Assembly: GCA_910574455.1 (NCBI GenBank)
Contig: CAJSYZ010000011.1
Span: 1-64,000 of the forward strand
Direction of reading: 5' to 3'
DNA: 64,000 nt
Source of the DNA: Trichaptum fuscoviolaceum
Taxonomy: Eukaryota > Basidiomycota > Agaricomycetes > Hymenochaetales > Trichaptaceae
Position 1 is the first letter of the stretch; each line of letters begins with the position of its first letter. Under the pieces are notes generated by a model. The model did no database searches. It worked only from the letters and a program-made list of their open reading frames with translations, and was not told where the DNA came from. The position numbers and the translations under genes were made by a program. Positions 8,996-59,700 of the stretch are shown here, one piece after another.

Positions 8996-9420
8996 TGTCT
9001 CCTCCCACCATGATTAACGAGACAACTCAGATTACGGATGAAAAACGGCAACCTTATAGTGCTACGAAATGTGCAGCTAATATTCTACTACCAACGTGTA
9101 CGTTGGGACAAACTGTCTGAACTCGGATACTTTTTCAATGTATCAGGTGTGTACATACAAGCTCGCCTTCTGATTCTTTTCGTTTAGTGACTCACTTCTT
9201 CACTTTTTAAGGGGTACAGGTATCAGCTCATCGGCGTTCGCTAATCACCTTGACGCTTTCGTCCGTTCTTAACTTCTTCGATGGCTCCTCGGTCCATTCA
9301 CCTACGCCATTCTTGGCGCGACCGCAAATTACTCACCGCAACAAAATGTGTGAACAGCCGGTAGTGACCAAGTGGTGCATCGCGGCTCCCAGAGCTCGTA
9401 TGTATGGTGAGTCCTTCTCG
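8996..9420 (+). pseudogene. Unidentified broken 5' gene end
   Basis: A plausible start (atgtctcctcccaccatg at 8996) opens a frame of about 40 codons that closes near 9118. Further coding-like stretches follow at 9250-9420 in other frames, including a phrase that reads FTYAILGA in one frame. The sequence sits directly upstream of receptor relic R1, where the U family stands in the other R loci, but I see no match to U. No domain is recognised. It is treated as decayed coding DNA of unknown origin. Confidence 0.25.
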
Positions 9421-9719
9421 TTCAACCTTCTTCGATTTAAATGTTACTTTATATGCTTATTTCGTGTGTATTCTGGTACCCTCTTATCATCAACATACAA
9501 TGCTATGGCACTGTGGGTGTTGCGGCTATTGGTAGGAGATGAGAGTAGGCGTAAAAGGGATCGAGCATGGGCTTTAACGCGTGCATTTCAATGTTTCACG
9601 ATGACTACAATCATAGAGAAAGGGCACCTCAATGGTATATGATTGACCTCGCGATGACGTGTCACCTCCATCAAAGGATCAGAATTAACAGTCAACGACT
9701 GTGGTCCCACTACTCTGCG

Positions 9720-11037
9720 ACCGGCTCACACCCTTCTCATCCTCGACACCATCGTCTAGGTTTCCTTGCTTGCCCTCCAATTTACCACGAGTCAGTCTCC
9801 ATGTGTCCCTGGAAGTGTCCGCTCTCCCTCTTCGACCATTTCCAACTCAACACATCTGACGTGCACCTGCACCCCGGGCTTCACCTGAATCACATTCCCC
9901 TGCGAATCGTGCCTCCCAGGATATTTCGGGCCCGTCTCAGCATACTCAGCATACGCAGACGGATTCTTGCAAGTAAACGCCGGTCCATGCAAAGGTTCGT
10001 TCTCTCTCCTTATCAAAGTGAAAAAATAATTTTTACTTAATTTACTTCAGTCAGTCTATGCACTCGACCGCAAACGCTGCACCTCCTCCCCGGCGTGTAC
10101 ATCACATGCCAATCAAGACCCACCCAGTTCTCGACCTCGCCCTCATCGTGCGTAGTCTTGACGTCCTTGGCGATGACGGAAGCTTGGCGAGAAGAAGACG
10201 CGTGGGAGGTGCAGTTGGAGATGGGTGCGGGGATGCGGGATGGCATGTTGCGCTGAGGCGGGCGCGGGGATGGAGATTGGACGAAGAGCCCAAGAGCAGG
10301 GGAGCAGGAGAGTAGAGACGGTATACAAACGATCCCACTCCATATGGCTACAGGGACTTCGATGACCATGGGAATGAGGACCAGCGCAGCCCCAGTCGAT
10401 ACTCCGGCGGCGTGCACCACTCGAACTCGTGCTATCTCGCGACATTTCCGCACCCGACTCACCAGCCCTTCTCCTGATGGGCATTCGAACGAGAAAGGTG
10501 TTTGAACTGGTCTAGAGGCACGAGCCTGTACTTCGAGATCACGGGCCAGGCGGAAGACAGATGAAGAAGACGAGACAGACCGACAGACCTTTTAGTCGGC
10601 GAGGCGACCTCGACGTCCTCCGCCCTCAACCCCTTCCCTCCAACCCGCCCAGTCCTTTTGACTCATCCTCGCATTCGCATTCACGGTCCTGATCACAGGT
10701 TCGGCGAAAAAGGGAGAATACGGGGGATTGGGAAAGGGCGTCGCCGATGGAGCAGCACGCGCTGTCCATTCTCAACACACGTTTCAAGGACGAGAACGCC
10801 CGCCGTGCGCATCGTTCATCCGAACCTCAATTCCAATGTCGGTTTCGGCGAACCCAGTTATGGGCTATTGGGCGAATTGAGCGCTACTCACTCACTACAG
10901 CTCACGCCTCGGTCAGATTGCTACCCTGCGGAGACGACGATCGACAATTCACAGCCGCGCGGCCATTTCTGACTGCGGTCCGCCCAAACGAGTGACTCGG
11001 CGGAGTCGAAGAAGATAAGAAACCCGTTCGTGCGGTG
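9720..11037 (+). pseudogene. Receptor-like gene relic R1
   Basis: Scattered pieces of R0 occur in the right order on plus. An EGF module reads CTCTPGFT then 'FPCESCLPGYFGPV' (about 9860-9935), with an in-frame stop. The exon 3 end matches QADDGTCK with its following intron (about 9955-10050). The cytoplasmic tail follows (ALSILNTRFKDENA about 10755-10800; YGLLGELSA about 10855-10890). The last coding stretch ends SAESKKIRNPFVR before tga at 11035-11037. The pieces lie in several frames and the transmembrane segment is not recognisable. It is convergent with M1 downstream, as R5 is with M2. Confidence 0.75.
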
Positions 11038-11790
11038 ATGATCTTTTCCTTCGCGCAAGATATCTGTCCCTGAGGCAGCGGGTCCTCCTGTTCACAACAC
11101 CTTGCGGCTTTCCTCGGCGCTCCATATGGCGTATGATATAGACTGTCTTGGGTTCTGATGCTGAAGTTTCATCCAACTCGGTACAACTGTTTCGCCCTTT
11201 GTCCTCGTTCTAAATTCATCTGCGGTGCGACTCCCCTCTGTACTACATTCTCTAATATGCTTAATATACCTCCTTTACCATTCGCTCCTTGATTATCTTA
11301 CTCATTTCGACTGTACCGCGATGTGGACTTCTCGTCATACATACAATTACAACTTCATTCTTTTTAACGCATTTGTAACCTTTACTCTATCGCGCAAACT
11401 TTCAAGTATACTACGCATGTCGGTTTCGTAGCATATTTGTGCTTAGTGGTGTATAATCTGATTTGGTATAGATTCAAACCTTGTTCGTGAACGTTGGATA
11501 CAGCAAGAGTGGAATCAAGTGTCACGAAGTCGTTTAAGGCGTGTCTCCCGCATCCTTCGTAGCCTAGGGTATTATTTGACAAGACTACATGATAGAATAC
11601 AAACGAAGTGAGATGAAATACAATGTTGATAAAGTCATGAGGATGGTAAATGCAAGAACGATAAGGATGAACTGAATAAAACAAACGTAGCTGATGAGGA
11701 ACCGACGACCGGGAGAAAGAAAGAGGCATGAAAAGAGGGATGGGTTGCCTGAATGGTTGAGAGAAACTAACATACAGGCCCGCCGTTTCA
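11038..11790. other. 3' flank shared between R1 and M1
   Basis: No gene. The stretch about 11385-11470 (containing 'tactacgcatgtcggtttcg') is the reverse counterpart of the 3' flanks of R0 (about 4400-4480) and R5 (about 55990-56040). It is part of the duplicated unit and not independent sequence. Two convergent genes end into it. Confidence 0.5.
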
Positions 11791-14700
11791 TCCCATCAAC
11801 TCGACCCACGCCGCCGTAGTTCAGGTTGGAGCTCCGGATGCGAGGGATGGGAGAGCAGAAAGAGCTTGACTGGATGCATGGTCTGTGACCACCATTGGAA
11901 GGATAGTCGGCGTTGGGTGAGACGTCCGAACTCGAAACCTGGCCCTAAAAAGAGAGAGTAGTGGTTTATATAGATCATACAAGAATCCACGAATGCGAGC
12001 TGGTATAGTATCCGAGGAATGATGTGATCCTGATGGTATAGCTCTGTTGTGATCCTAGGGTTATTCTGAATCAGTTTTCGTCTACAAACCGGATGGACAC
12101 CTACAAGAGTATCAGAGCCATGGTCCGAGGGATTACGCGTTCCTGCCAGTGATGGTCCAGCATTGTTGTGCTCTTGCATTGAGTCCATCTCATGTTCTAC
12201 TGCCTGTTGCTGTACTATATCTCGAGTCGTTCTTGTGCTCTGGATGTCGAAGTGAGTTTATATGATGTGGGTTACAGGCATCAGTATCGAACCTTCAGCA
12301 CTTCCCATGCCCTGTTGAAAGCTGCTGTTCGATACTCCCGGTCGCTAACGCGTAGCTGGAGAAGCTTGCGGTGCTTGTCAAACTCTATCTTCACCATTTC
12401 AAAAAACAGCAAACTAAGCTCCGGGTATCCCCACAAGAAAGCTTCAAGTCGTTCCTCTATATCATCATTGTCGCTGATTAAAATAAGAGAGTTCAGAATA
12501 GAAGACGTATAATATAATATACATACATTCGGAATGCCCGCTTTAGTATCTCTTGCATTATTCCATCTGATAGTCTACCTTCTCCAAATTTGCTATAAAT
12601 AATTTGGTAGTACATTCTTGCTACATCCTCTGATTCAGAGTTGTATAGTGCCAGAGGCTGGGGAGAGTCTGTTGTTTCCTCTCCTGCCACCTGCCTTTGA
12701 TGAGAGAGTCTCTGGACAATGCGACTATGGAATGATAAGTCAGCGTTTTCTAGGTTAAATGACTGTATATTTAGTGCCACTTATGATTTACCGAATTTGA
12801 ACTGAGATTGTCCACGGGCTCGGCCAACGGCCATGGCAGTATAGATAGTAGTTTATACGACCTACGTGCTTGTCAAGGCAAAGCGACCTAAGTATACATT
12901 ATTAGATCAAACTCAGAATTTGAATCTCCAAAGAAGATATAGATACCAGAAAATATTCCGCAGCAGATGTGCAAATTTAGGCATCACTTCGAATCTGAGC
13001 GGTTTAATAATCCAGTCTGAAGTCTTTTTGTTAGTCCAAAGTTTAACTGTTCTAGCCCACTTTTTGGCTGTTACTGTGGGTTGTGTAGAGCTCCAGATGA
13101 CGCATCCGCTAATCCATTTCGCCCAGAAGGACTCATGCTTGAGCTCAAATATGAACCAAGCCGTGACTGTAAGTAAGCATGCTGCATGTACTCCGGTAAG
13201 GATATTAGTTGTCAGAGAAACATATTTGAACTACGCAAATCGTGAGTCAGCCTTACCAACAATGGAGTTGCTGGCATACCTGAAGGGATAGATGTGCAAA
13301 TAGATTTAGACCAATAACGAATGAAACTGATGCAATGATCAAAAAGATCATAGGAGCTTTGTCGAGCCATATGTAGATTGGTTTGGGTGTACGTGACGAG
13401 TTATAGCTATGGTTGTATGGTTGTCATTTAATACGCCCGAACACAGCAAATCACGTACACAGAAGATTTTCTCCAGGTCATCCCAAGCAGACTGCTTACG
13501 CCCGATGAAACACTGAAGACGAGCGATAGGAACCAGAAAAGGTTTGTCAGTCCTCCTAACTTTGAATTGCCCTGGTTGTATGTGATCTGAAGCGTAGTTG
13601 CCGTTACGCTTGAGAAGAAGGTAGCAATCGTCGTAATGTTAGCGTATCGAATTGTAGCCCTCTCCTTTTCATCCGAAAGGAAAGTGGGTAGTGCTTGTAT
13701 GACTAAAGGTAAGTAAAACGTCACAATGAACAAGATGAATTCCGACCTCTCTCTTCAAATGTCTTCAATTCTTCGGGAATATCTTGCATTATCCCATCCA
13801 AGTCGGCAAGGAGCTTCGATAAGAGTTCAAAACATTCAGGCCCACGTAATATGTCTAAACCATAGATATTTTAGAGTCCTCATATCGTCACAATATCGCT
13901 GGTACTTACTTTCACCCAGCACTTTAAAACATCCGCTCTTCACATAATGTGGTTAGCAATTCACATGAACGTTAGGATTGTAACTCACCAAAATCCAGGT
14001 CTCCAATGTCTTCACTTTCCGAAAATAGAATGCATGCTTCTGGCGGTACAGTGCAATGCGAAAGTCTTTGACAGATGAATAAAGACACCGAAAGGAGTTC
14101 ATTGTCTCTGCCACCGCCCCGCTCCTGCCTGTAGTGCAAGTACGAATTAGATACGGAGTTTAGCGGTAAAGCAGAACATACTATGTGTTGCAATATCCAG
14201 GACTTTCAGTCAGGAGTCAACCGGCTTAGTTAGATCTGCTTGCAGGGATCTCGCAGATTTGATGACTTCCGCGTCGCCTCCGATGATTTCTAGGTGGTTG
14301 ATAAGGTGCCATAGCTATTTAAATTATTACGTGTGGCTGTGACGCGTCAAGACCGTATGCGTACCTCATCCTTTAATTCGTTACATTTCCTGTGAATTCC
14401 ATCACTTATAACTTGAGGTAAAGGCTCGAAATGATAGACGTACCTTCTGTGCCCATTACACTGTTCTAACAGTTGCGACTTACTTTCTGGCATTAGCCAG
14501 GCTTGTTCATTCCAAGATGAGTCGGAGAAAATACAGGCAATACGGTCCACAGACAATACTTCAAACTTCTGTGGGTCTTGCTTCGTCATCCAATCCACCG
14601 AGGCTTCCAGATTGTCAGAACTTTGGGCATTTCGAATGTGACTGTTGCTTACATTTTTTGTAGCATTTTGTTAACTCGTCAGACACACAGTTCATTCCAA

Positions 14701-15890
14701 TTTCTAAACGGTGAAAAATGGTACGATACGCAGAATCATACCGGGGAAACGGGCGCAACCGTCTACTATTGTACTCTTCAAAGCGTTTTAGTACACTGCT
14801 ACAGGAAGTACGTTGAATATCTACCTTCAATCTGATTACAAACTGACTTCGTACAAATGCATTAGCTTCAACCATACCACAGAACTGTTACTCACAGCAA
14901 TAGCAGAAAGCCATTGCTCTGTGATTTCACGAGCAGGCGCGTCTCCTCCCAATCCCCATCCAGTCCTATTGAGTTCGAGAGAATCGGATTTGACTCTATT
15001 AATTACTGTTTCCACCTTTCTCAAAAGTTCCAGTTTCCCTTCTAACAAACAAAGGTTGAATCTTTCGCATGACTTCAATGGGGAAGGTTACGCACTATAC
15101 GTGTCATCAATTAGATAGTTTTCCGTGCAAGTCACAAATTCGAACATTCCTTCTTGTAGTCCGTTCATTAGATGGATACTGGAGTCGTCCAATCCGATTG
15201 TGCAATTATACACAACTAGACGATTCAGCTGATATGAAGTCATGAGGACCCTTTAAAATAATAGAAAGTATCATGCACACACACCGTCCTTTTCATTTTC
15301 TCGCATTCGCTGGAGCATAGTTCATATGTTATTCTCAGTAAATTAGTTTGGTGCGATCGAACACGTACACTCTGTGCTGCGCACATCTGTCTTTATAGCG
15401 CAGATTCACTGCTTCTGGAGACCAGTCATGACCTGTGGATTAAGTTCATTAGGATTGCAGTGAAAAGGAATTGAATTATTGCGCACGGCCATAATTATCC
15501 GGTGTGTTTCTAGGGTCAGAGATGAGTCCCTGCTCAGTCGAAGGCCCTGCTTGCGGAGACGATTGTGCCGGTTGGAATACAGCTTCATCGTTTTCATGAA
15601 CTTGACCTTTATTGCAAGGTTAGTAGTTATGCAAGTGGTAGACATGTGAGTATATGTCTCACTGGTCGGCAGTTGTGCTGATGCGAGTTCAACTGCTTCG
15701 TTTACTTGAGCCAGAGCTTCCATGAAATTGGCCATCAATAATATACGAGCAAGGATAAATCTCACAATGTCTCTGCTCAATCTCTTGATCCATGGACGTC
15801 AAGGTATCTTGCAGGTTCTGTACAGCTGCCCGAAGATGCTTTATAGTCGCGGGAGTTAGCAACAAACCATCTCCTGTTAAAGTATGATAT
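11790..15890 (-). CDS. Multi-membrane-span protein of unknown family, copy M1
   Basis: This is a many-exon minus-strand gene with short introns. The N-terminal part begins near 15870 (LTPATIKHLRAAVQNLQDTL) and is helix-rich and soluble. A membrane part at about 13030-13740 has consecutive hydrophobic segments, including IVTFYLPLVIQALPTFL, ITTIATFFSSVTATTLQI, FWFLSLVFSVSSGVSSLLG and APMIFLIIASVSFVIGLNL. A hydrophilic helical C-terminus follows (ARMYYQIIYSKFGEG at about 12585-12635), and then a polar tail ending near 11800. The same order, splice sites and most residues are found in M2 on the opposite strand (51422-55660). Both copies keep the frame open across the exons that I checked, including an exon that removes an apparent stop near 15480. 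I do not recognise the family; four to six membrane helices suggest a membrane protein. The exact start exon (MSG-type in M2) is not clear here. Confidence 0.6.
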
Positions 15891-15899
15891 TAATAGACC

Positions 15900-16660
15900 G
15901 GCCAAGAGGTGTTGATCCTTACCTATCGATGGATCTAGAATATCGTAGGTTAGAACTAAGAATTGATGTATAGCTAGAATAGGGCATACCAGACATAGAT
16001 GAAGAGTTGGGAGTGTTCTCTTTGAAGGGAGTGGAAGAGGACGGACTGAGGAAGGGAATGAGCACGTTGGCCGAACACAAGGCAGCGGAGGAATCGCGCA
16101 AATCAGTCCTTAGTATGCACTGCCAGTGGCAAATAAGACAAAACAATACACTGCCACTCAGCCTCATGGCAGACGTTGGTCTATTTGACTTCACATTCCC
16201 CTTCGAATAATTTTCTCTCTTAGTCCACATCGCCATATGGCATGTCACTATTTTCAAGCTAGCTTTGCGAACATCCAATAGCAACATTGCATGATGTCTA
16301 TGATCTTGGACAGATTTCACGTCAACGGTGTATGATTGACTTCGCGTTCAGGATGAGATGAGCTAGGCAAGTGCTTCAATCGGTGAGTCCTTCATGTCCG
16401 TTGCAAAGATATGGCGTTATAAGGCAATCCCAGCAGCCCCAACGAATGTGATGTCGCCTGCCGCTATATGCATTGCTGTTATGAAGGCTCTACAATCTAT
16501 TCAAGTGCGTCTTATATCATTTTGAATTGATAGTATGTAACACACACCAGTAGTAGACTCATTTCCCTCCGCGGCTCATGCCCTCTTCATTTACTGTCAT
16601 CAAACACCTCCCTCCTATCCACAGCGTACCAGGGCCCCTGTGCCTCCCCCGGTGCCTGCT
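15900..16660. other. Intergenic, upstream of M1 and before relic R2
   Basis: No gene supported. A stretch at about 16310-16350 ('gtatgattgacttcgcg') resembles 9636-9660 upstream of R1, so the 5' flank of the receptor family begins here. The remainder could hold the M1 promoter. Confidence 0.35.
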
Positions 16661-18060
16661 CTTCCCCTGCTTCACGTTCACAACCAACTCAATTAACATG
16701 CGTCTGCGCTCTGGCTTCCCTGGTTCCTAACGCGGATCGTGCCTACCATGTCTTTCGGACAAAGCGCAGATACCATTAAAAGCAAAAGGCGTTCGTCATT
16801 TTCAGCGCGAGACAGATGTCCCAGCGATTCCATCAACGTTCTGGGCACAAGGTACATGTCCGGAAATGGCGGGTGTGTGCGCAACACAGGATATGGACCG
16901 CTAGCAACAGCATGATTTGTGTAGATGGGGGCTTCTAGGCGGACGATGTCACTTGCAAAGGTTCGTTCCTCCTGATCCTACTAAACAAAAAGTGAAATAT
17001 GAACTCAGTTACTTCTAGGTTGTACATCCTGCACTGCGTTCTCCGGTGTGTGCGTCATATATCCATCGGGATTCACCCGATCCTAACTTCGCTATGGCCT
17101 CGACGACCACGGCGGCGCTCTGGTTTGTAGAGAAGAAGGCACGCGGGCTGGGGATGGGGATAAAGTTGCGCTTCCGGAGAACGAGTCTTAGTAGAGGGAG
17201 GAAGATAGAAAGAGTGGGGTAGCAAGACGATTCAGGCCTGGACAAGATTCCGCGATCCTCAAGGTGTACGACTCCGAAGACTACGATGTGGACGAGGACG
17301 AGAGCAGCTCTTCCCGTTACTCCGGCGCTCATTCGCACCCGAACCCAAACCCGGACTCGCATCTGCGCTACATCGCTGCATCCTCCTGGGCAGTACTCAC
17401 CGGAACTTCGCCTCACAGACGCTCGAGAGGGCGGGGGCGAGGGGGCTTGAATCGGCTGAGCTGCGCGAAAGCTTGTACACGAGATCAGGTGCCATGCGTG
17501 CCGCATCCGAGTCGCCGACGTGCGCCAGCCGGGTAAGAGAAGGATAAGATGGACTAATCCATTGGGCGTGCGCGAACTCGACATCGCTGATCCGCGCTAG
17601 AGTTTAATGCGGCGTCTCCGGCTTGACCTATTTGTCTGGCTCGTCCTCGCAATCCCGCCGGGAGACGGAGACAGAGAATATGGAAAGGGCACCGATCCCG
17701 GTGGAGGAGTACGCGCTGTCAATCCTCGGCATGCTATTCAACGACGCGAAAACAGCGCGCGTAGGCGCATCGTGCATCACGTTCTCAGCTCTCGAACTCG
17801 AATCCAAATACCAACTCCAGCAAACCGGATTTCAGGCTATCGGGCGGGCTGCGCAGCTCGATACACCCAGCCCGCGCCTGTGCCTGCGCCTTTCTACTCC
17901 GCGATGAAGTCGACGTACCAGTCCCAGGCTCATTATCAAGCCCCCAAGGCAATGCAGCTGCAGATGTGTTATACGCTCAACAGCCCGCAGCGCGGCCAAT
18001 TCCCCCAGCTCGGGCGATTCGATGGAGCCAAAGAGGAACAGGAACCCATTCTTGCGGTGA
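16660..18060 (+). pseudogene. Receptor-like gene relic R2
   Basis: Recognisable pieces of R0 on plus are the exon-3 end 'ADDVTCK' with its splice donor (about 16935-16960), the acidic segment with YDSEDYDVDEDE (about 17265-17310; R0 has YGYRDYDDDD), LNRLS (about 17447-17465), VEEYALSILGMLFNDAK (about 17700-17755), and the tail ending near the tga at about 18058. Frames change between pieces, and the ectodomain is mostly missing. It lacks an M partner and is followed directly by the U relic, so this R copy may be an extra duplication. Confidence 0.65.
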
Positions 18061-18289
18061 TTGATCTTTCACGTCGCGCGGGATACTTGCTGTCGAAACA
18101 ACCCTTCTTGTTCCTGTTCTCTTCACGGATCGTCACGTCACTCCTTGTTCTGTAATCCTCATGTTTGCAGTTGCTCTCAACTCAATCACTGCCACAATTC
18201 ATCTGCGTCAATGTGTAATGAGGCATCGAACATCGAATCCTGCGTAAACAGACATCCTAACACGCTATAGCGGTCGCCGTGCAACTTGA

Positions 18290-19745
18290 AGCCGCGTAGC
18301 GAATGAAGACGCACCTTACAATGCCATTAATGTCCCATTGGCAACCGTGATTGATGGTTTGAGGAAGCATGAGAATGGAAGGCAGGGACAAGGACGAGGT
18401 GGCCATACAAGATGGACGAAACCGTGTGTTTCTCACGACATGTACACCTTCAACGTTCACTCATCGTGCTGTCCCATTGAGCAGCCATTACGACTGCCGT
18501 GCGACAGCTGGCTCTGGCACCTTGCTTTCGCATCTCCTCCCCGCGAGCACACTGTCTGCAGCACGTGCACGTGTCGACTGGCCTTCCCAAAGGCTCGAGG
18601 AGCTCTCCAGCGCGTGCGGATATGGGGGCAGCTTGCAAGAACGCGACCATGGCGCCAAAGCACACGACAACGGGCTCACCAAGAGTCACCATCATCATCA
18701 GGCCTTCGTTGGAAGACACTCATCCACCCGCATTCGCAACGTAAGTACTACACTAACGAGAGGCGGCGTCCTTCTCGTCGCACACCACAGCTAACACAAT
18801 CAGTAACGTGAAGCTCGCCTGCCGCATTCGCAAGGGCCACAGGTACAGCGGGCTACAAAGGGTCTGGCTGTTCACGAGGGCTCAACCATTAGCAGCGGAT
18901 GATGCCAGTGGGCGGCGCTGTACCTAGATGGATGGAGTACGGAATGTGCAGCCTCGACTGGCCTCCTGTTTCTTACGACATACAGCATTTCAATAAATGT
19001 GCACACATCGTGGCGCTTGGTTTACAGGAAGCTACGATGCATTTCATTGGCGTAGCCAAGCTCATCCAGGATAAGGACGTGAGTGGTGTATTCATGGCTT
19101 CTGTTTGCAAGATATTCACGTCTGATATCAGAGTGCGCTGCGGCTGTACGCCTTGCAATCAAGAAGCTCGCCACACAGCCGAGGATGTTATTATGGTGCT
19201 CTATGTGCGCTTCGGTGGTCTTGCGGATGGATACACGGATGCAGAAATTGTCTCGCACAAGCTTGTTTGCGAACTCGTTCTCTGCAGACGAATGACTTTG
19301 CCAGATGCCATGGTGCATCCATTGGAGGTAGTCGCAGGGTCCTGAAGGTTCGCTCGATCGCATGCATCGCTCAATAGCTTTCAGTCGCTACCTTCCCAAC
19401 AGCATCGTGGAATGCTCAGGCTGCGCAGACGACCAGTCCGACTCCAAACTCGTGCCTTCCGTATTGCGTCGGGTGTAATCGACACACGCACCTTCGCGAA
19501 CATGCAGGATGATAAAGGATATGCAATCCATCCCCGCATACGCGTGCTTTGATATATCATCGACGTACGTTAATTTATTTATGGCGTATTTGTTGTACGA
19601 GGCTAACGAAACTGTCAGTACAGGCGTGGATCGCTTCCTCGAGGCTGTCATCGTTCATCGAATCCAGCTATCGCTTCCACTACGCTTGTCTGCGCATTCC
19701 ACCTGCTCTCTGCGGTCAAGGACGTCGTCATGCGCTGGGAAAACG
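18290..19745 (+). pseudogene. Relic of unidentified family U, copy 1
   Basis: Coding-like DNA on plus is matched by minus-strand copies at 58010-59700 and 50205-51060. Shared phrases include SLQERDHGAKAHDNGLT, followed later by HRRPSLEDTHP-like sequence; 'SLDWPPVSYDIQHF'; GLQEATMHFIGVAKL; and 'LYEANETVSTGVDRFLEAVI' (about 19600-19655). In the 58 kb copy this last phrase is followed by a hydrophobic segment (FVSTALVFAFVYHLF). The frame is repeatedly broken, so this is not a working gene. It always lies upstream of an R copy and on the same strand. I do not recognise the family; a membrane protein is possible. Confidence 0.5.
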
Positions 19746-21215: not shown

Positions 21216-21589
21216 AGGAGCGGACGCGGACACGCCCATAGACATATGTATGTATACTGCGTATCTCGCCTTGTAGCATATTGAAATATGACTTAATGGA
21301 ATGTGATTGCGGTTTTATCTTGGACTTGGCGAGTGCATTGTCTTGAAATTCTTTCCGCAGCCTTCGCGCGTACGGTTGTTTTATGATGTACGTTTATGCA
21401 TGACGAAGTTTAGTAGTAATTCAAGTTGTATGTATGTACTTTGCTATGCATACAGAGGGGGAAAGGAATAATAAAGCTACATAGTAGACTACAGTCGAGG
21501 TCTGAGAGATGAGAGGAATATAAAGTTGAGAATGTCGTGACCATACCGAAAGGAAGGAAGAAAGGGATGGAGAGCTAGCAGATGAGGAA

Positions 21590-45400: not shown

Positions 45401-45404
45401 AGAG

Positions 45405-47080: not shown

Positions 47081-47099
47081 TTATATATATCCTCAACAC

Positions 47100-47395: not shown

Positions 47396-47518
47396 TAATT
47401 ATTTATTATTGCTTCTCTAAGTTACTTCATGGAATATTTACTGCGTAAAATTACTCCACGTCTTTGCAGTAGTTAGTGGCTTTGGTAAAACTGGAGCTGC
47501 TGGTACTGGTGCTATTGA

Positions 47519-48375: not shown

Positions 48376-48399
48376 TATGGAAGAACTGAGATACCCTTG

Positions 48400-49140
48400 T
48401 GGACGTGATGCCAGTGTGAGCCTGAGTGCCGGCGTGCGGTTGAAGATTTTCAGAACTCGCGTGATGAAGAGTTGAGCTCCCGGGCGTGACTTGACGGTGA
48501 CCGTGATTGTGATGTGCGCATAACTGTGTCACGCATCTGAGGCTGGCTTGCCCGCGCCGACTTCCTTTCACCATAAGATAGTCTCTTCTAATCGCAGTCG
48601 ATGCAGTTGGCTGGAGTGAGTCGGTTGGCGCGTCACCCGTCCGCAGCCTTGTCCTGGCTTGGAGGACAGATACATACCAGACTGATCGTAACCCTAAGCT
48701 TCTTCCCATCGCTCCCTCTATTCACCGCCTTTCTACCGCAATACGGCTCCGTGCCAGCGCGACGCTTCCTCTAGCATTTCGGTCATGAGTGAGAAATTGA
48801 GATCTGCCTACGACTCGGCCGGCTCTGTCCCGGCCTTAACCAGGGCAGGTGTGCTCCCGAGTCCACTTCCGTCTCCCACGGCAACTTGAACCTCAATGGC
48901 AATCCCACACCATTCTGATTGAGGACGACTGTGCCGATGGTACGACTTGGATGGACTACGAAAAGAACGAAGAGCAGCAGAGCCGCAGCCCTAGAACAGT
49001 CTCTTCTCCATCGTCATGCCTTCTCCTCGTAATCAACCATCATTCGCATCATCTTGCCTAAGCCTTCATCCTGCGAACCGCTTTTTGTTTCTAGGAATGC
49101 GTTCCAGGCCTCTCGTCATTGAGAACGACGACCGCGTGGG
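48400..49140. other. Upstream flank of copy H, no gene
   Basis: No supported gene. About 48400-48540 resembles the flank upstream of A and F only weakly. From 48700 on the DNA is unrelated to its neighbours. Confidence 0.3.
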
Positions 49141-49149
49141 GATGGTTGG

Positions 49150-49310
49150 TTGACTATATGTACCTCCTGCGATGATCGCGTACCCAGCCTCGTCTCACGT
49201 ACCTTGTACTCTCCCATTCCTCGCATCGGGTTCTCCGAGGAGAGTCACGGTGGAATGGGTCAAGCTGATGGGATGACACATGGCAGACCTGTATGTCAAT
49301 TATTGGATGT
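49150..49310 (+). pseudogene. C-terminal tail of family M (relic)
   Basis: 'gtaccttgtactctcccattc' then 'gagtcacggtggaatggg' match the minus-strand relic at 21680-21790, and 'gacctgtatgtcaattattgg' matches the M2 end ('ggcctgtatgtcaacaactc', 55660). It is convergent with R4, as expected of the duplicated unit. Confidence 0.4.
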
Positions 49311-49689
49311 AACATCTTCCTTCCATCGATCGCGCTGCCCGTTCTCTTCTCTTCGTCTCATCCCTATAATTTTTTCTCTCGGTATCCTCACGACATTTTC
49401 AACTTCTTTCCTCGCATCTCGAGATCGTACATATCTGTAGCCTTCTTGTTTCTTTCCCCTTCTGCATACATAGCAATGTACATACATACATACATCAGTA
49501 CTGGGAATCATCATGCATTTAAATACATCCTTACGCCGCGAAGGCTGCGGTCTTAGACCATTTCAAGACAAAGCACTCGCTAAGTCTATTCTCACAGCAC
49601 ATCCAAAGTTCAAGAGCAAAACTACAATCACATCACATTGAATCACACTCCGATATCCATAACTATGCAACGAAAGCGATATTTGCATT

Positions 49690-50205
49690 ACACAATACTA
49701 CACGTATATAAGCGTGTCGCGACGTACGCTCCCTATTCTCCCAGGCTCTCCCGCCGAGATCGCGTACAGAGGTCATCGTGAACGCCAGAGCGAGGACGCT
49801 GATAAGCCGGCAGAGAACGTCAATCCGTGCGAGCAGAACGGCACGTTCTGAGACAGACAAGGAACATCGCAGTCGAGTGCGCACCACGAGGTCCGTCTTG
49901 CCCTCGTCTTTCGCCCGCCCCACCCGACCCCGGCACGACCTCGTGCGCGCGCATGGCCAGCGATCTCGGTGTGCAGACACGCACCCTATCAGCCGACTCC
50001 AGCTCCTCGCCCTCGCCCTCGCTCTTTCGAACGTCTGCACGGGCATGGCGGGTAGCGCGCGGGGATGTATGTCGCGAGGTCGCGCGCATGCGGATGAGCG
50101 CCGGCATTTCCAATCAAAGTCACTGTAGTCATACGCATCGACGGTCATCTCCCAGCTCGCCCTGCTTGCCTTGCCCCCTATCGTGCGCCATTCCTCACAG
50201 TACGG
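49690..50205 (-). pseudogene. Receptor-like gene relic R4 (tail only)
   Basis: On plus the stretch 'gcgatctcggtgtgcagacacgca' in two pieces, and 'gggatgtatgtcgcgaggtcg', match the R0 non-coding strand at 5460-5640. On minus this is the segment between the membrane helix and the end of the R protein. Only this part of the tail remains and its frame is broken. Confidence 0.6.
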
Positions 50206-51060
50206 TAGCTTCCTGCAACCCAACCGCTATGCCGTGTGCACGTTGAAGTGCTGTTTGTTGTAAGAAACAGAAGGCCAGTCGAGGGTGAGCATTCGGAGCT
50301 CCATCCTATCCGGGTACAGCGCCGCCCATTGGCATCACCGGCTGCTGATGCAATGGCTCACCGCCCGTGAGCTGCGGCACCCTTGGAAGGTGTTCTTCCA
50401 CAGCTCGCCGACGATCCAGCCCGCTGCAGCTGTAGAATGCGACACGCGAGCTTCTTGTTGCCAATGATGTGACGTCGCCGCTCGTTATTGCATTGCTGAC
50501 GTTGCGAATGCGAGTGGATGGGTGTCTTCCAACGAAGGCCTGGTGATGATGGTGAGGCCGTTGTCGAGTGCTTTGGAGCCCTGGTCGCGTTCTTGCAAGC
50601 TACACCCATACCCTGCACGCGCAAAGGTGTTGTTCTTTGGAGTGCTCCTCGAGTTTTCGGTAGGCCACTTGCCAGTAGTGCGTGTAGGTATTGCGGACAA
50701 TGCACTTTCAGGGAGGAGATGCGAAATGAAAGTTAACAGATTGAGCTGCCGCAAGGCAGTTTTGATGGCTGCTTAATGAGAGAACACGATGAGTAAACGA
50801 TGAAGGTGTATATGTCGTAAGAAACACACTTTTTTCCCATTCCTCGCCCTAGTTCCCGCTAACGACCCGCCTTCCATTCCCTCTGGCATGTTATTTTTTG
50901 ACCACACTGCCTCTCAGGCTCCCTGTTCGGGGCAGCAATGCCATTGAGGGGTCAGGGGTGTCTTCAACGTGATGAAGTACTGCGATCGCTGAACTTGGGC
51001 TGTGGTAAACTTATGATGGATGCTTGCGTCGCCCGTCTATTCACCTAGGAATCCATATTC
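50205..51060 (-). pseudogene. Relic of unidentified family U, copy 2
   Basis: It matches U copy 3 at 58760-59640 nearly base for base over most of its length, for example 'ttgaagtgctgtttgttgtaag' in two parts and 'ttattttttgaccacactgc'. It contains YGCSLQERDQGSKALDNGLT on minus. It lacks the downstream half seen in the 58 kb copy. The frame is broken. Confidence 0.6.
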
Positions 51061-51421
51061 AATGCCGAATAATACATTGACGTAGATGAATCCTGAAAGT
51101 GTCTGAGTTGTGAGCGTCTGCAAACATGAGGATCGCAAAAAAGAGGACTCAGGCCGGCCAAATATTAACCGTGGGAAACAAGTGCCTCGGTTTGTCCGAG
51201 TCTCTGGCGCTCAAGCTGACCGTCACTCAGCTACGTATGTATGTTTCAGACTCTCGTGTCAAGCCTCATCTACTACATTAATATGCTGCTTCCTGACCGC
51301 CTCACCGCTGCCTTGCGTTCGTTCAACGTACTCGTTAATGCCCAACAATGCTCGTTCCCTTCCGCAATTCTCTCTCTTCCACTCCCAAGACCACAAAGAC
51401 GACATTCGCACCACCTCAACA
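51061..51421 (+). promoter_or_regulatory. Upstream region of M2
   Basis: About 360 bp without a gene. The last part is pyrimidine- and ACC-rich ('gacattcgcaccacctcaac') just before the start at 51422, typical of basidiomycete leaders. I see no distinct TATA box. Confidence 0.35.
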
Positions 51422-54400
51422 ATGTCTGGTAAGTCCTATTATTGCTGCGCGTCATTTCATTGTTTAACGAGCGCGAAATCCCAGACCCATCTACAGGTAT
51501 GGACCAATAACTAATAGCCGGTCTATCAATAACGTTCTTGTAAAGGAGATGTAGTGTTGCTGACGCCCGCGGCTATTCAGCATCTTCGAGCTGCCGTGCA
51601 GAACCTTCAAGATACCTTGGCGTTGGTGGATCAAGATATCAGAAATCGTGAGATATATCCTCACTCGTATATGATTGATAACTAATTTCACGAAAGCTCC
51701 AGCTCAAGCAAATGATACAACTACACGCGAACCAGCACAACCGCCCACCAGTGAGACATATCCTCACTCATACATGATTTGATGATTAATCTCGCAAAAA
51801 GCGCAAGTTCAAGGAAACGATGAAGCTGGACTCCAACCGGCACAATCACCTCCTCAAGCAGGGACTTCGACAAAGCAGGGATCCGTCTCTGACCCTGGAA
51901 ACACACGGATTAATTCTGGCCGTGCGCAATGATTCAATTCCTTTCGACCACAACCCTACTGAATTTAAACTACAGGTCAACGCCGGTTGCCAGAAGAAAC
52001 TGAACAGCGCATAAGAGACAGATGTGCGAGACACAGAGTGTACGTGTCTGATTGCACCAAACTGAATTTCTGAGCATAACTCATGAATCATGTTCTAGCG
52101 AATGTGAGAAAATGAAGGGAACGGTGTGTGTACATGCTACTTCCTATTTTTAAGGCCCCTCATGACTTCAACTCAGCTGGATCGTCTGATTATGCATAAT
52201 CGCACCATTGGATGTGACGACTCCAGTATCCATCTGATAAACGGACTATTAGAAGGAATGTTCGATTTCGTGACTTGCACGGAAAATTATCTCATCGGTA
52301 GCTCATTCCGTGCGTAACCTTTCCTAATTGAAGTCATGAGAAAGATTCAATTGATCTGTTAAAAGGGAGAATGGAATTTTTCAAAAGGGCGGCAACTGCG
52401 TTTAGAAAACTCAAATCCAATTTCCTCGAACTTAATGGGAACGGATGGGGATTGGGCGAAGACGCGCCTGCTTGCGAAATTACAGAGGACTGGCTTTCTG
52501 CTATTGATGTGAGTAGCAGACTTGTGATGTGGTCGAGGCTAATGCATTTGCACGAAGTCTGGTTTTGATACGCTTGGAGGTAAACATTCAACATAGTAGT
52601 GTACTAAAATGTTTTAAAGTGTCCTTGGTGTCGGTACTAGCGTTGCGCTATGTTCAATTTGTGGACTATCAAGACCTTTTTCACCGTTTAGAAATTGGAA
52701 TGCACCGTGTGTCTGAAGAGCTAACGAAATATTACAAAAAATGTAAGCAACAGTTACATCTAAAATGCCCCAAATCCTCACCATGTGGAAGCTTCGGTGG
52801 ATTGGATGACAGAACAGGACCCACTGAAGTTCGAAAGTTTAACCGAGGAGCGTATTACCTGTATTTTCTCCGATTCATCTTGGAATGAACAAGCCTGGCT
52901 TAAACCAGAAAGTGAATCGCAACTCTCAGAACAGTGTAATGGGCACAGAAGGTACGTTTATCAATTCCAGTCTCTACTTGAAGCTACACACAATGGAATT
53001 CATAGGAAATGTAACGAATTAAAGGACGAGGTACGCAAATGGTCTTGACGCTTTATATGTGCACGTAATTATTCAAATAGCTGCGACACCTTAACAACCA
53101 CCTCGAAATCATCGGAGGGGATGCGGAAGTCATCAGAACTGCAAAATCCCTGCAAGTAGAATTATTTAAGCCGGTGGATTCCTTACAGAATGTCCTGGAT
53201 ATCGCGACACCTAGTACGTGCTGCTTTACCGCTAAATTCCGTATCTAATTGTTACTTGTATCACAGGCAGGAGCAAGGCAGTGGGAGAGACTGTGAACTC
53301 TTTTCGGAAGCTTTATTTATCTGTTAAAGCCTTTCGTATTGCACTGTACCGCCAGAAGCATGCATTTTACTTTCGTAAAGTGAAGACGTTGGAGACCTGT
53401 ATTTTGGTGAGAAATACTCCTAACGTTCGTGTAATTTGCTAACTACATTACGTGAAGAGCGGATGTTTTGAGGTACTGGGTGAAAGTAAGCATCAAGTAG
53501 ATTGTGATGATATGAGGGCTCTGACATATTCATGGTTTAGACATATCGCGTGGGCCTGAATGTTTTGAACTCTTCTCGAAGCTCCTTGCCAAATTGGATG
53601 GGATAATGGGTGATATTCCTGAAGAATTGAAGACGTTTGAAGAGAGAGGTCGGGGATTCATTATTTTCATCGTGGTGTTTTACTTACCACTAGTCAAAGT
53701 ATTACCCACTTTCCTTTCGGATGAAAAGGAGAGGGCTACAAATCGATACGCTAACATTACGACGATTGCTACCTTTTTCTCCAGCGTAACGGCAACCACC
53801 CTTCAGTTCACATACAATCAGGGAAATTCAACGTTAGGAGGGTTGACAAACCTTTTCTGGTTCCTTTCGCTCGTTTTTAGTGTTTCATCGGGCGTAAGCA
53901 GTCTGCTAGGCATGACCTGGAGAAAATCTTCTGTGTACGTGATTTGTTGTGTTCGGGCGAATTAAATGCTAATCATCTAATCATAGCTATAACACGTCCC
54001 GTACACCCAAGCCTATTTATATTTGGCTCGACAAAGCTCCTATGATATTTCTAATCATCGCGTCAGTTTCATTCGTTATCGGTCTCAATCTATTTGCGTA
54101 TCTATCCGTTCAGGTATGTCAACGACTCTATTGTTGTCAAGACAGACTCTAAATTTGTGTAGTTCAAATATGTTTCTCTGACGACAAATGTCCTTACTGG
54201 AGCACATGCAGCTTGCTTGCTAGCTGTCACGGCTTGGTTCATATTTGAGCTCAAGCATGAGTCCTTCTGGGCAAAATGGATCAGGAGTTTCTTCGACTGG
54301 ACCAGGCACTGTATCTATACAACCAAGAATCTGACTATGGCAATGGTCATCAAGTGGAATAAGTGGATTACGACATCCAAAATGTGGGCCTCCGAAGCAC

Positions 54401-55660
54401 TTATGTCAACCAAACGCTGGCCGAAAGACAGACTTGTGCCGTTTCTTGCACATCTGATACGAATTGTTTTCTGGTGTCTATTTCTTCTTTAAACGTTCAA
54501 ATTTTGCATTGAAGTTAATGTTGCATGCTTTAGGTCGCTTGGCCTTGACAAGTGGGTAGGCCGTTTAAACTACTATTTATTCCGCCGCGGTCGTTGGTCG
54601 ACCCCTGGGACAATCTCAGCTCGTATCCGGTAAATAATAATTACAATTAATGTACAATTGTTTAACCTGGAAAATGCTGATTTATCATTTTCAGTCGCTT
54701 TTTCCTATGTCTCACTCATCGAAGACAGGTACCAGGAGAGGAAACAGGAGAGGAACCACGAGATCCGTCCCAACCTCAGGCACTAGACGACTCTGCAGCA
54801 GACAATGTAGCCAGAATGTACTACAAAATCATTTACAGCAAATTCGGAGAAGGTAAACTCACAGATGAAATAATGCAAAAGATATTACAATGGGCATTCT
54901 GCCTGTAAGTATCTTCATACGGCTTCCATTTTGATTTTTCTAATCTGCATCAGCAACAATGATGATATTGCAGAACGACTTGAAGCTTTACTGTGGGGAT
55001 ACCCGGAGCTCAGTGTGCTGTTCGTTGAAAAGACGAAGAGTGTGTTACTCGCTCATCGGATATACATGCTGTTCAGGGAAAGCGACCTGGAGTATCGAAC
55101 ATCAGCTTTCAACAATGCATGGGCCATACTGAAGGTTTGCAACTGATGCGAGTAGTCCACTTTATATAAATTTACTCGACCCCCAGAGCACGAGAACAAT
55201 TCGAGATATACCACAACAACACGCAGTTGAATACGAGATGGGCTCAATGCAAGAGCACAACGAAGCTGGACCATCGGGAACGCGTCATTCCTTAGACCAT
55301 GGCTCTGATACAGCTGTAAGTGATTTCTCCGTTTGTAATGATGAAAAAGAGTTTCAGCTTCACTCCAGGATCACAACGGCCCGGGAATTGGGCCAATAGG
55401 AACGTATCATTCCGCGGGTGCTATTCCAGCGCGAATTCGCAACTTCATGTGTAGTTTATATGAACCACTACACACTCGTTTAAGGGCCGCGTTTCGAGTC
55501 CGAACTGCTCACCCAACGGCGACTATCCTTCCTATGGCGAACGTGGGCCCTACCACTCCTCAAGTTCCTTCTACTCTCCCTCTCCCGTCCCGGGCCATGG
55601 AAGCAGGAGCTCCGAGCTGAGAAATGGGCCGTACCGTTGGGATTACGCTGCGTACGGTAG
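51422..55660 (+). CDS. Multi-membrane-span protein of unknown family, copy M2
   Basis: The first exon is three codons (MSG, 51422-51428) with a gtaagt donor. The next exon reads VLLTPAAIQHLRAAVQNL. After several short introns, one of which removes an apparent stop at about 51930, the N-terminal region continues (GWGLGEDAPACEITEDWLSA, 'FHRLEIGMHRVSEELTKYYK'). The membrane part lies at about 53640-54490: FIIFIVVFYLPLVKVLPTFL, ITTIATFFSSVTATTLQFTY, FWFLSLVFSVSSGVSSLLG, MIFLIIASVSFVIGLNLFAY and ACLLAVTAWFIFEL. The C-terminus has ARMYYKIIYSKFGEG and a polar tail ending around 55650. This makes five or six membrane helices; no catalytic motif was recognised. It is convergent with R5. Together with M1 it forms the best preserved arms of the large inverted duplication. 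Confidence 0.62.
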
Positions 55661-56340
55661 GCCTGTATGTCAACAACTCTCTGTAATTTCTAATTTCCTT
55701 CCTCCTCTCCGACTACCATCCTAGTTCTGTGTTTCATTTCTTCGGCTCTTCATCAGATCAGTTTTATATCTTCAACACATCCATATATTTACTTTTTCGC
55801 TTTCCTCATGCCGTTCTCTACTTTGTATAAATTGTATTTTCTCTCCTCTCGAAATCCATCTCTGTATCAGATCCAGACTGAGTCTATCACGGAGCCTTCT
55901 CAAATATAACCCTGTGCGATATGATTGCAGGCCTTCCTAACGATGAACTCACTCGCTCCTAAAACAAAAGTGTAATCACATAACAATGGATTATCCATTA
56001 ACATCCACAAATATGCTACGAGACCGACATGCGCAGTATGTACGAGAGCTTGTACGTTAAAATGAAGGTTGAACGAGTTTGTATATGTGATGAGTCAACG
56101 CGGTTATACAGTTGAAAAACGATCCTAGGTAACATATGTAAGAAGCGAAGTGTCGATGTTGATAAAGAGGCGTATGGAACAAAGGAGGTCAAGGTTGCAT
56201 CGTGGATGATTTTAGGTTAGAAAATGAGAAGAAACAAATTTGCCAGCTTACAAGAAACATCAACATCAAACTCCAAAGGTCCTTGCGATTCAAAAAGTTC
56301 CTATGAAGATAGTCTATATCAAATACCTATGCCACATGCC
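55661..56340. other. Shared 3' flank of M2 and R5
   Basis: AT-rich with no gene. It contains 'atgctacgagaccgacatg' near 56010-56030, also found downstream of R0, which shows that the flank was duplicated with the gene. Confidence 0.5.
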
Positions 56341-58000
56341 ACATGGAAGAAAATCGTGAGGGGTCAAAAAAGAGACTAGGAACTAGAAGACGGGGTTCTT
56401 CGACAGCAAGAATCCCGCGCGACGAAAAAGACCAATCATCGCGAGATCGGGGACTCCTCCAACTCACCCGAGTTGGTGGGCCACAGCCAGGACTGGCCAC
56501 GCCGCGGCGGGTTGCTGAGCTAGCACTGCGGCTGCGTCGTCTGAGCCCGAGGTTGGTACGCCATCGCCCTTGCTTTTGTGAACCGCGTGCCAAGATCGAC
56601 AGGGCATACTCCTTCGCCAGGATCAGCGTTTTCCCTAGTCTCCCTCTTTCTCCCGGCGAGATCGTGAGGACGAGCGAGAATGGGAGGACATGCCGAACGA
56701 ATAGGTCAAACTACAGACGTCGTATTGCAGACTTAGCGTGGACGACTGATGTTCAGGTCGCGCACGCCCACCGGAGGAATTCGTCTCGTCCTTCTCCGTC
56801 CCGGGCCGGGTCATCTAAACGCGGGGCTGGCGCAGATCGGATGCGGCGCGCATGGCACGAGATCTCGGTGTACAAGCTCTCGCGCCGTCAGACCCCTCTC
56901 CCTCGCCCTTTCGAGTGTCTATCTATGAGGAGCAGGTTTGGCAGGTGGTGAACGGGGAAGTCGCGAGGTGGTGTGAATACGGGTGCGGGTCAATCGTAGT
57001 ATCGGGACGACGGGAAGGGCTGCGCCCGTCGTCATTCTTGTCGAAGTCCCTGTGGTCGTATGTATTGAGGTCATATCCCAACTGGCCCTGCTCACCCCCT
57101 ATCGTGCGCTGTTCCTCTCTCTACCAGATCTTCTACCCTCGCACCCGCCGCGCAGTGCTATCGGCTACTCCCGTGCGCCCGTTCGCCCATCTCACGTCCC
57201 CGACCCCTTCCCACGTGTTTTCTTCCCTCCAAGCCTGAGCGCCCCCGTGGTCGTTCAGGGTCAATCCCACGTACGCCGAGGGCGAGGTGAGGTCGGGGAC
57301 TGGATGCACCCTGACTGGGATATATCGCCCGATGCACAGGAGGCGGTGCGGGACGTGCAGCCGACTGTTTGCAGTTAACTAAGTTCAGTTACTTTGAGTT
57401 CACTTTTGTTTAGGAAAGAAAACGAACCTTTGCTTGTACCATCGTCTGCCTGGTACAACGCGTCTGACGCGACCTTGCTTATGGACATGTACCCTGTATT
57501 GAACGTGGCCCCGCCACTTTTATCGCAGACGCCATTCCCATTGGTGACAAACGATACCATCGGCACACTGGGCGCAAGTCGACGAGCAGGGCGTGCAGGC
57601 GGGCCCGAAATGGTCTTGGAGGTACGATTCGAAGGAGCAGCCGATGAAGCTCGGGGTGTCAGTGCATATCGGCCGAGTTGAGGTCGAGTTTAAAAAGGAT
57701 AACGGGCAGATACCGTCGGATGAGCAGGAGCACTCGCGCGCGGAGCACGGAGAGCCAGACGATAGTTAATGACGAGGAGAAGTGCAGCTGCGCTGTGGTC
57801 CGGGATTGAGTCACAGATCGTGAGCCGGGTAGACAGACGAGGCGGGTCAAGAGAGGAGAGCGAAGGTGTACGAGCTCAGGAGGACCGAACCTCGTTCACG
57901 CTCTTATTCGCAATGACTTTGACGGTGTTGAAGGCAGAAGAGTCGGTAAGACTGCGTAATGAGCTGGGTCACAAATGTAGTCAAAAGAGTACACCACAAG
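56341..58000 (-). pseudogene. Receptor-like gene relic R5
   Basis: On minus, pieces in R0 order include the ectodomain start (TVKVIANK, about 57920), the Cys modules with DGVCD-like phrases, 'YQADDGTSKGS' at about 57420-57450 (R0 QADDGTCK), and then tail pieces down to about 56400. Several frameshifts and stops are present, and the membrane helix is not seen. The intron after DGTSK is retained, so this is a genomic duplicate and not a processed copy. Confidence 0.7.
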
Positions 58001-58009
58001 CGAGACACG

Positions 58010-59700
58010 AGCCAGCATGAAAGAAGCTTGGTATTCGCTACCTGATGAGCTTCGTTTTCCCAGCGCTTGACGACGTCCTTCACTGCAGAAAACAGGTGGT
58101 ATACGAAGGCGAAGACGAGCGCAGTCGATACGAAGTAAGGAAAAACGATGACAGCCTGGAGGAAGTGTTCCACGACTGTAGCGACAGTTTCGTTAGCCTC
58201 GTACAGCAATTACACTCATATGAATCAACGTACGTCGATGGTGCAGAATAGAGCACGCGTATGCAGATAACTTCGAGATGGATTGCCTATCCTTCTTTAT
58301 ATTGCATGATGAATAAGATGCGTGCCGATTTTGCCCAGCTCGATAAAGAAACCACGCATTTTGTCCTGGTCCTGTGCGCGACCTGAGCATTCGACGATGC
58401 TATTGGGAACGTAACGACCGAAGTCTCCTCAGCGATGAATGCGATCGAGCGAACCTTCAGGATCAGCGACTAACCCCAACGGGTGCACCACGGTATCCGG
58501 CCCAGTTATTCGTCCGCAGAGGACGAGTTCGAGACAGACTTTTGCAACGCAGTCTGCACGTCTGTGTATCCCTCCGTAAGACCACGCAAACGCACGTACA
58601 GCACCGTAATGGCAGCTTCAGCGGTGCTGGCGAGCTCCCTGATTGCGAGGTGTACCTCCTGACGCAGCGCACTCTGCTATTGGACGTGAATATCGTGCAA
58701 ACGGAAGAAATGATTACATCACTCACGTCCGAAGCGCTTTGTTACGCCAACGAAAAGTACCGTAGCTTCCTGCAACCCAACCGCCAAGCCGTGTGCACAT
58801 TGAAGTGCTGTTTGTTGTAAGAAACAGGAGGCCAGTCGAGAGTGAGCATTCGGTGCTCCATCCTATCCAGGTACAGCGCCGCCCACTGGCATCACCGGCT
58901 CTTGATGCAATGGCTCGCCCCTCGTGAACAGCGGCACCCTTCGAAGTTGTTCTTCCACGGCTCGCCGACGATCTAGCCCGCTGCAGCTGTGGCATGCGGC
59001 ACGCGAGCTTCTTGTTGCCGATGCTGTGAGGTGAGCGACGAGAAGGACGCCGCCGCTCGTTATTGCATTGCTGACATTGCGAATGCGGTGGATGGGTATC
59101 TTCCAACGAAGGTCTGGTAATGATGTTCAGGCGTTGTCGCGTGCTTTGGAGCCCTGGTCGCGTTCTTGCAAGCTACACCCATACCCTGCACGCGCAAAGG
59201 TGTTGTTCTTGGAGTGATCCTCGAGCTTTTGGAGAGGCCAGTTGAAGCGGGGTGGTATTGCAGACAATGCACTCGCGGGGAGGAGATGCGAAGGTAAGGT
59301 GGAAGTAAGTGATGGAGCAGGCTGCCGCACGACGGCTTCAATGGCTGTTTAATGACACAATATGATGAATGAACATTGACGGTGTATATGTTGTAAGAAA
59401 CACACTTTTTTCCCATTCCTCGACCCGTTCCCGCCAATGACCCGCCTTCCATTCCCTCTGGCATGTTATTTTTTGACCACACTGCCTCTCCCTGTTCGGG
59501 GCAGCAATGCCATTGAGGGGTCAGGGGTGTCCAACGCGATGAAGTACTGCGATCGCTGAACTTGGGCTGTAGTAAAGTTGTGGTGGATGCTAGCGTCGCC
59601 CGTCTATTCACCTGAGACTCCATATCCCCGCCACGAAGCGTAGCGTAGTAGAGGGATGTGTGGGCGCGAAAAAATGTTTGAATTGTCAGCAAGTAAGCAT
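58010..59700 (-). pseudogene. Relic of unidentified family U, copy 3 (longest)
   Basis: Reading on minus gives LQKLEDHSKNNTFARAGYG, SLQERDQGSKARDN, 'ASTAEAAITVLYVRLRGLTE' then GYTDVQTALQKSVSNSS, and 'YEANETVATVVEHFLQAVIV' followed by the hydrophobic FVSTALVFAFVYHLFSAVKD and VVKRWENEAH. The frames are interrupted by stops, for example after SNSSSADE. The order matches the plus-strand copy at 18290-19745. The strand and position relative to R5 are as in the other loci: U upstream, same strand. Family unknown; at least one membrane helix is likely. Confidence 0.55.

Follow-up and report, generated by a model that had tools for sequence, protein, structure and literature searches.

The first 64 kb of contig CAJSYZ010000011.1 of Trichaptum fuscoviolaceum carry two gene blocks in mirror-image order, and the locus raises the question of whether one inverted duplication, several genes long, made both. 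Here, we report an analysis of this stretch (64,000 nucleotides, called the window) and of the contig that it opens (C11, 4.18 Mb long, in a 12-contig, 59-Mb assembly; other contigs are numbered likewise). The repeated elements are a cysteine-rich receptor-like gene (R), a membrane-protein gene (M), an HMG-box gene (T), and a mosaic of gene fragments (U). The mirrored stretches are truly related, and they look like an old, repeatedly duplicated, largely decayed cluster with one reversed segment. The cluster probably grew by local duplication in several steps, had one segment inverted, and decayed while duplicating, a reading that we prefer with considerable room for doubt. No description of it was found among titles and the starts of abstracts, which is weak evidence of absence.

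Mirror order of the two arms

Sensitive minus-strand alignment placed arm 1 (9.73-22.22 kb) collinear with the reverse complement of arm 2 (48.74-57.78 kb). The aligned pieces were 9731-9937/57784-57597 (61% identity), 9956-16072/57466-51340 (6298 columns, 71%; midpoint, 33.71 kb at both ends), 18136-19035/51153-50205 (68%; midpoint, 34.62-34.64 kb), and 20772-22224/50198-48743 (61%; midpoint, 35.48 kb), where identities of 55-65%, here and below, mark noisy alignments. On the same strand, the two arms gave zero matches, and five of five equal-length reverse-complement control stretches from C11:75-156 kb, placed to miss an R copy at 124-125 kb, were empty. The mirror order described in the initial annotation is thus real, and its bookkeeping of one extra R and one missing U is correct. 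Its common midpoint at 33.6-34 kb is right for the outer R1-M1/R5-M2 pair (33.71 kb) but not for the inner pieces (34.63 and 35.48 kb). This drift from 33.7 to 35.5 kb is due to two indels: R2 is present in arm 1 only (2064 versus 187 bases; midpoint shift, 0.94 kb), and the 5' half of R4 is gone (1737 versus 7 bases between U and the R tail; shift, 0.87 kb). Off-register matches join 18371-21220 to 59456-56650 (67%) and R2 to R5 (60%).

TTAGGG arrays lie at the ends of C1 and C4 (among the matches listed), and none was found at the start of C11. The window, which starts at base 1 of C11, therefore begins at a contig end that is likely, though unproven, to be a chromosome end. An assembly artifact, either a fold-back or a joining of haplotypes, could be suspected from this position at base 1 without TTAGGG and from the near-identical copies that the spacer transposon has elsewhere. 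Such joins or alleles would be near identical, however, whereas identity between the arms is about 57-89% by piece or bin and the M copies differ with low omega (the nonsynonymous-to-synonymous ratio); with 0 N bases in the window as well, we consider an artifact scarcely credible.

Genes and fragments of the unit

The cluster unit is a convergent pair, either R facing M or R facing T. Among the R copies, R0 (4396-8125, minus strand) alone has long open exons (open reading frames of 290, 322, and 575 codons), together with a likely transmembrane segment; matches to its own exons held one stop, at a guessed splice crossed by the typed query. Its Pfam matches all fell below the cut-off (VSP, 1.6e-5; EGF, 0.0025; Furin-like_2, 0.73), so the label "cysteine-rich receptor" draws partly on a reading of the R0 sequence. 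The R search returned 22 matches (27 of 27 candidates scored), all confined to C11. Outside the window, R copies lie at 124.1-125.5 kb and, as R7 beside the T copy T7, at 269.6-273.4 kb.

Stops, which may sit in introns, were counted inside the matches of R7, in one of the three matches of the 124.1-125.5 kb copy, and inside the matches of four pseudogenes in the window: R1 (9647-11505, plus), R2 (16357-18137, plus; the extra copy, with no arm 2 counterpart), R3 (19823-21240, plus; behind U3), and R5 (55963-57960, minus). R1 aligned to R0 in pieces and lacks two R0 stretches, the one upstream of 7793 and the one at 5784-7107. About 130 bases of R3 (approximately 20203-20332) match R0 and R7 in the opposite direction and mark a small inversion inside this pseudogene. 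R4 (49690-50198, minus) is the 3' part of a pseudogene whose 5' half is missing at the U4 junction; it was placed by the arm alignment and gave no match in the R search. The copy at 124-125 kb might be the other half of the R beside M3, split by a 55-kb insertion, but an edge test gave overlapping matches. Separately, a transposon-like element at C11:68893-71173, with inverted ends of about 210 bases and a 99% copy at C11:80334-82489, cuts into the R end beside M3.

M is represented by automatic gene models of 853 residues for M1 (11821-16072, minus), 861 for M2 (51338-55580, plus), and, outside the window, 851 for M3 (C11:64.3-68.4 kb). The Pfam match of M1 to DUF6535 (E, 0.008) is below the cut-off. 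M1 and M2 were compared over 641 codons with no stop (synonymous divergence [dS], 0.44; omega, 0.30), M1 and M3 over 637 codons (0.47; 0.32), and M2 and M3 over 637 codons (0.30; 0.40), values that lean toward conservation because the models reward conserved frames and penalize stops in other copies. The closest M pair by dS, introns, and tail is M2-M3 (introns 82.3% identical, with the same leaning, versus 77.0% for M1-M2 and 74.0%). M is apparently under purifying selection, and seems to remain so while its partner R copies decay. When 7992 candidates were scored against the M2 protein model, none reached an E of ≤0.001, an uninformative outcome. M relatives are abundant on C9 at 3.9-5.0 Mb (46 of the 66 listed matches, from a search in which 53 of 490 candidates were scored), where 38 of the 46 are on the plus strand and, in places (4487-4525 kb), are spaced about 9-10 kb apart in a very large cluster.

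The segments at 21.3-23.06 and 48.74-49.7 kb, previously annotated as M-tails, proved to be remnants of the HMG-box gene T, whose 3' end is common to M. T1 (21321-23061, minus) comprises the first of these tails plus more and ends at the spacer transposon, a Plavaka element; its bases 21321-23022 match C11:269700-271573 at 69%. There, adjoining the decayed R7, T7 is an open 275-residue frame (C11:270144-270968) with an HMG box (1.3e-10) and is possibly a living relative of T1 and of T2 (48743-49690, plus), the second remnant, which aligned to both T1 and T7. A tblastn search with the T7 frame found T1 (E, 5.7e-59) and T2 (E, 0.002); the HMG_box match of T1 itself (E, 0.026) is below the cut-off. 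A truncated M was given up as the origin of the tails on the T7 alignment, the tblastn result, and the HMG box in T7.

The relation to the 270-kb copy extends beyond T, since 19530-23068 aligned with C11:273375-269648 as one piece (3904 columns, 64%) that starts within the mosaic, in its second gamma-COP fragment. T1-T7 homology ends at the Plavaka element, and the continuation of T7, when compared with the far flank of the element, scored 184, below the highest of 50 shuffles (195). M1, M2, and M3 all have their 3' end in common with T. Matching between M and T ends near M1 11905, equivalent to T1 21821 and T2 49159, and matching between T1 and T2 runs on; we read this as M joined to the end of T, the reverse direction also being possible.

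U had been annotated as a repeated unit, and it is present in both arms, but it is a mosaic of host-gene fragments. U3 (18371-19823, plus) holds, 5' to 3' and all in sense, a kinase 5' part (18417-18888), a gamma-COP piece (19014-19197), a LYS2-like piece (19196-19502), and a second gamma-COP piece (19538-19895) that overlaps the start of R3, which comes next. DNA matches (C2:2365349, C2:3720.5-3721.1 kb, and C5:6911.5 kb) and protein-level matches trace these to a kinase locus and gamma-COP on C2 and a LYS2-like gene on C5. Domains in the donor genes are Pkinase (4e-26); AMP-binding, PP-binding, and NAD_binding_4; and Adaptin_N. The gamma-COP label is based on PDB entries 3tjz (E, 6.9e-25) and 5a1u (E, 3e-24), and the kinase and adenylating donors we take to be HAL4/SAT4-like and LYS2, respectively. 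Against PDB, the LYS2-like frame matched adenylating enzymes of the nonribosomal peptide synthetase type, with no aminoadipate reductase among the best 60 of 114 matches.

U5 (57960-59627, minus) is a full mosaic before R5 with the same piece order as U3-R3, and U4 (50176-51060, minus; 85-88% to U5) is the kinase-gene part. In U5, the gamma-COP match stops at 58602 and the LYS2-like match begins at 58601 in the same reading frame. Two gamma-COP exon matches are separated by 57 bases (58731 to 58673), suggesting a retained intron and hence capture at the DNA level. Besides its donor, the kinase part has three copies, all on C11 (four of four candidates scored), and the mosaic presumably formed once. 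A short segment lies between U and the M 5' end (18136-18253, plus; copies at 51035-51153 and C11:64034-64171). U4 adjoins its own copy of this segment directly, and 4.4 kb extra (59627-64034) stand between U5 and the copy before M3; repeats in that interval match C11:73-77 and 122 kb, and it contains a 33-base inverted pair (59938-59970/60722-60754).

Pieces of three genes from C2 and C5 joined in sense could also point to a carrier, the two arms then being opposite insertions of one fragment-capturing mobile element, Helitron-like or other. Hallmarks of Helitrons are a Rep/helicase gene and TC...CTRR ends. There is a precedent in Pleurotus, where Helitrons capturing gene fragments have been described (PMC4289320). 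Here, though, mosaic copies and R matches are on C11 only and not dispersed (no search for element ends or Rep genes was made), and homology boundaries vary between units, which makes a carrier highly unlikely. A bolder reading, somewhat less likely than not, is that this contig end is a nursery for gene welding: separate fusions (the kinase 5' part with gamma-COP, LYS2-like, and R; M with the HMG-box gene 3' end) may have been made at the DNA level, gamma-COP and LYS2-like meeting in one frame, and then copied and flipped as units, at least M being selected.

One duplication or several steps

Orientation provides the first evidence beyond the window. R1 to R3 are contiguous and on the plus strand, and R0, R4, R5, the copy at 124-125 kb, and R7 are on the minus strand, the pattern of an array with an inverted segment. 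With 9.65-23.06 kb flipped, the elements run in direct order as T, R, U, short segment, (R2), M, R, followed by T, R, U, short segment, M, R, U, and then short segment, M. On this reading, the mirror arises because one contiguous stretch (R1, M1, R2, U3, R3, and T1) is inverted in a cluster whose remaining mapped R copies are on the minus strand. Further units with the orientation of arm 2 are found beyond the window, so the locus is not a two-armed palindrome.

The trees bear on the same question, those of M, U, and T having no outside root to hand. A mirror partner is the closest relative for R3-R4 but not for T1, U4, M2, or R1. U4 and U5 are 88.1% identical, against 71.9% for U3-U4 and 72.8% for U3-U5. 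In two alignments, identity across the shared columns was 74.6 and 71.8% for T1-T7, 64.9 and 61.4% for T1-T2, and 64.2 and 63.1% for T2-T7; T1+T7 had bootstrap values of 94 and 96, and T1+T2 gave approximately unbiased (AU) P values of 0.081 and 0.029. Before T7 was included, T1+T2 looked firm (67.8-71% identity over the tail alone; bootstrap, 100; alternatives, AU P < 0.001), and the inclusion of T7 altered that picture. In the R trees, R3+R4 had bootstrap values of 88 and 99; R1 with R5/R6 gave AU P values of 0.0049 and 0.0554 in two alignments, R4 with R5 and R6 was not rejected (AU P, 0.127 and 0.086), and R7 was unplaced and not beside R3. Identities were 61.7-64.8% for R3-R4, 59-61% for R3-R7, 57.4-63.3% for R1-R5, 70.6-72.5% for R5-R6, and, by stretch, 61-71% for T1-T2.

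The main competitor is the history first proposed, in which both arms stem from a single inverted duplication of several genes, a pattern later blurred by tandem duplication in the right arm, transfer of a T1-like unit out to 270 kb, gene conversion, and the insertion of transposons. The mirror collinearity and the R3-R4 grouping agree with it; so does the deepest split of the M, U, and T trees, each of which can be rooted between the arms (M1 | M2,M3; U3 | U4,U5; T1,T7 | T2). Cross-arm M (dS, introns, and tail), U, and R are also more diverged than the right-arm copies, and T1+T2 was strongly supported when T7 was left out. It is strained by the AU values for T1+T2 and for R1 with R5/R6, by the closer T1-T7, U4-U5, and M2-M3 relationships, by the extra minus-strand units outside the window, and by the several additional events that it needs.

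Different divergence levels among the mirror pairs had been named as evidence against a single event, and they were found in part: M1-M2 introns are 77% identical, U3-U4 72%, R3-R4 62-65%, and R1-R5 57-63%, an approximately twofold spread between pairs (Jukes-Cantor, by hand), although regional rates may differ. Right-arm copies vary too (U4-U5, 88%; M2-M3 introns, 82%; R5-R6), so uneven divergence alone is weak evidence. Hypermutation resembling repeat-induced point mutation was discarded as its source, with CpG observed/expected ratios of 1.08-1.33 in R1 to R6 and C>T plus G>A changes 1.0- to 1.8-fold over the reverse. Of the single inverted duplication, then, the mirror-order homology, the R3-R4 pairing, and possible arm splits stand, and the history as a whole is unlikely, though well ahead of a carrier or an artifact.

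Several observations weigh against stepwise duplication with an inverted segment. R3 groups with R4 and not with R7, contrary to the neighboring T1-T7 signal; the M, U, and T splits fit one cross-arm event (either an inverted duplication or a block duplication accompanied by an inversion); and R1 with R5/R6 and T1+T2 were each rejected in one alignment and borderline in the other. An R scrap at C11:303 kb is on the plus strand, and a stretch of R3 aligns to R in the opposite direction. The other breakpoint did not yield the 5' part that R1 lacks, the 55-65% alignments are noisy, and the M tree has no outside root. At the breakpoints, R1 lacks its 5' part, T1 is cut at the transposon, and their partners were not found.

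Under the stepwise history, the starting unit would have been R facing T, or R facing M with the 3' end of T, at one end of C11. Units would have multiplied locally in several steps, probably via ectopic recombination among repeats, and the kinase/gamma-COP/LYS2-like mosaic would have arisen in front of R and then been copied along with it. After the contiguous segment was inverted, the minus side may have duplicated again (U4/U5 and M2/M3), FunK1 genes may have come to fill the spacer, and the PlavakaB element may have landed at the inner edge of T1 or contributed to a rearrangement there. We infer the inversion, its timing, and the recombination route.

Spacer and comparison with known systems

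The spacer begins with the Plavaka transposon (23062-33838; Pfam Plavaka, 4.6e-17; KOW, 2.9e-6), whose ends are CATCACGAAAGT and ACTTTCGTGATG. Six further copies of its first 939 bases are 99-100% identical, C3 holds a 99% copy of its last 1.3 kb, and long copies lie on C1 (94-95%), one of which also covers the stretch of its KOW/Spt5-like frame (27057-28076). Judged by such copies, the element in the spacer is young. Within it, 343 bases (28641-28983) match their own reverse complement at 84%. The FunK1 cluster (33857-48528) was delimited by self-similarity and probably holds kinase genes: of three frames tested, 42011-43018 matched Pkinase_fungal (9.7e-6), and 34141-34674 and 47451-48131 had no match. 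Together with the Plavaka transposase, this kinase match is in keeping with a mushroom-type basidiomycete. The FunK1 cluster contains an inverted pair (34075-35820/41350-43090) that, at 92%, is much younger than the mirror arms. From the young Plavaka copy and this pair, some of the spacer, if not all, postdates the arms, in agreement with its proposed later filling by the Plavaka/Spt5 and FunK1 blocks. Elsewhere, at the contig end, an inverted pair of about 87 bases (1349-1435/3186-3271; 91%, 1.9 kb apart end to end) may be a small transposon.

Counting the units beyond the window changes the meaning of the apparent mirror duplication. The locus also illustrates in detail how duplication in steps, a probable inversion, the welding of gene fragments, and the movement of transposons come together at the end of a fungal contig. 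PlavakaB ends have been described as CATCA..TGATG (PMC12730594), and the element here qualifies by its Plavaka transposase and these ends; it is like PlavakaB also in having copies on several contigs. Unlike PlavakaB, it carries a KOW/Spt5-like frame (the main text of PMC12730594 mentions neither Spt5 nor KOW) and has no perfect 2-3 base target-site duplication (the left flank ends in AAG, and the right begins with GAG). The mosaic resembles fungal Helitron capture in that several host-gene pieces are joined in sense (PMC4289320), but dispersed copies were not found, and no search for element ends was made.

Inverted segmental duplications with a spacer share the mirror gene order, here around 26.5 kb, and differ from this locus, where identity is about 57-81% by piece, several closest relatives lie outside the pair, and further units stand on one side. 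With subtelomeric families as summarized in the literature (yeast maltose-transporter, Pneumocystis surface, and Plasmodium var genes), the differences are that the majority of R copies have decayed, that the copies have diverged strongly, that R was found on one contig only, and that nothing points to an antigenic or metabolic role; the likeness is in the contig-end site, local copies in both directions, chimeric copies, and decayed copies beside open ones.

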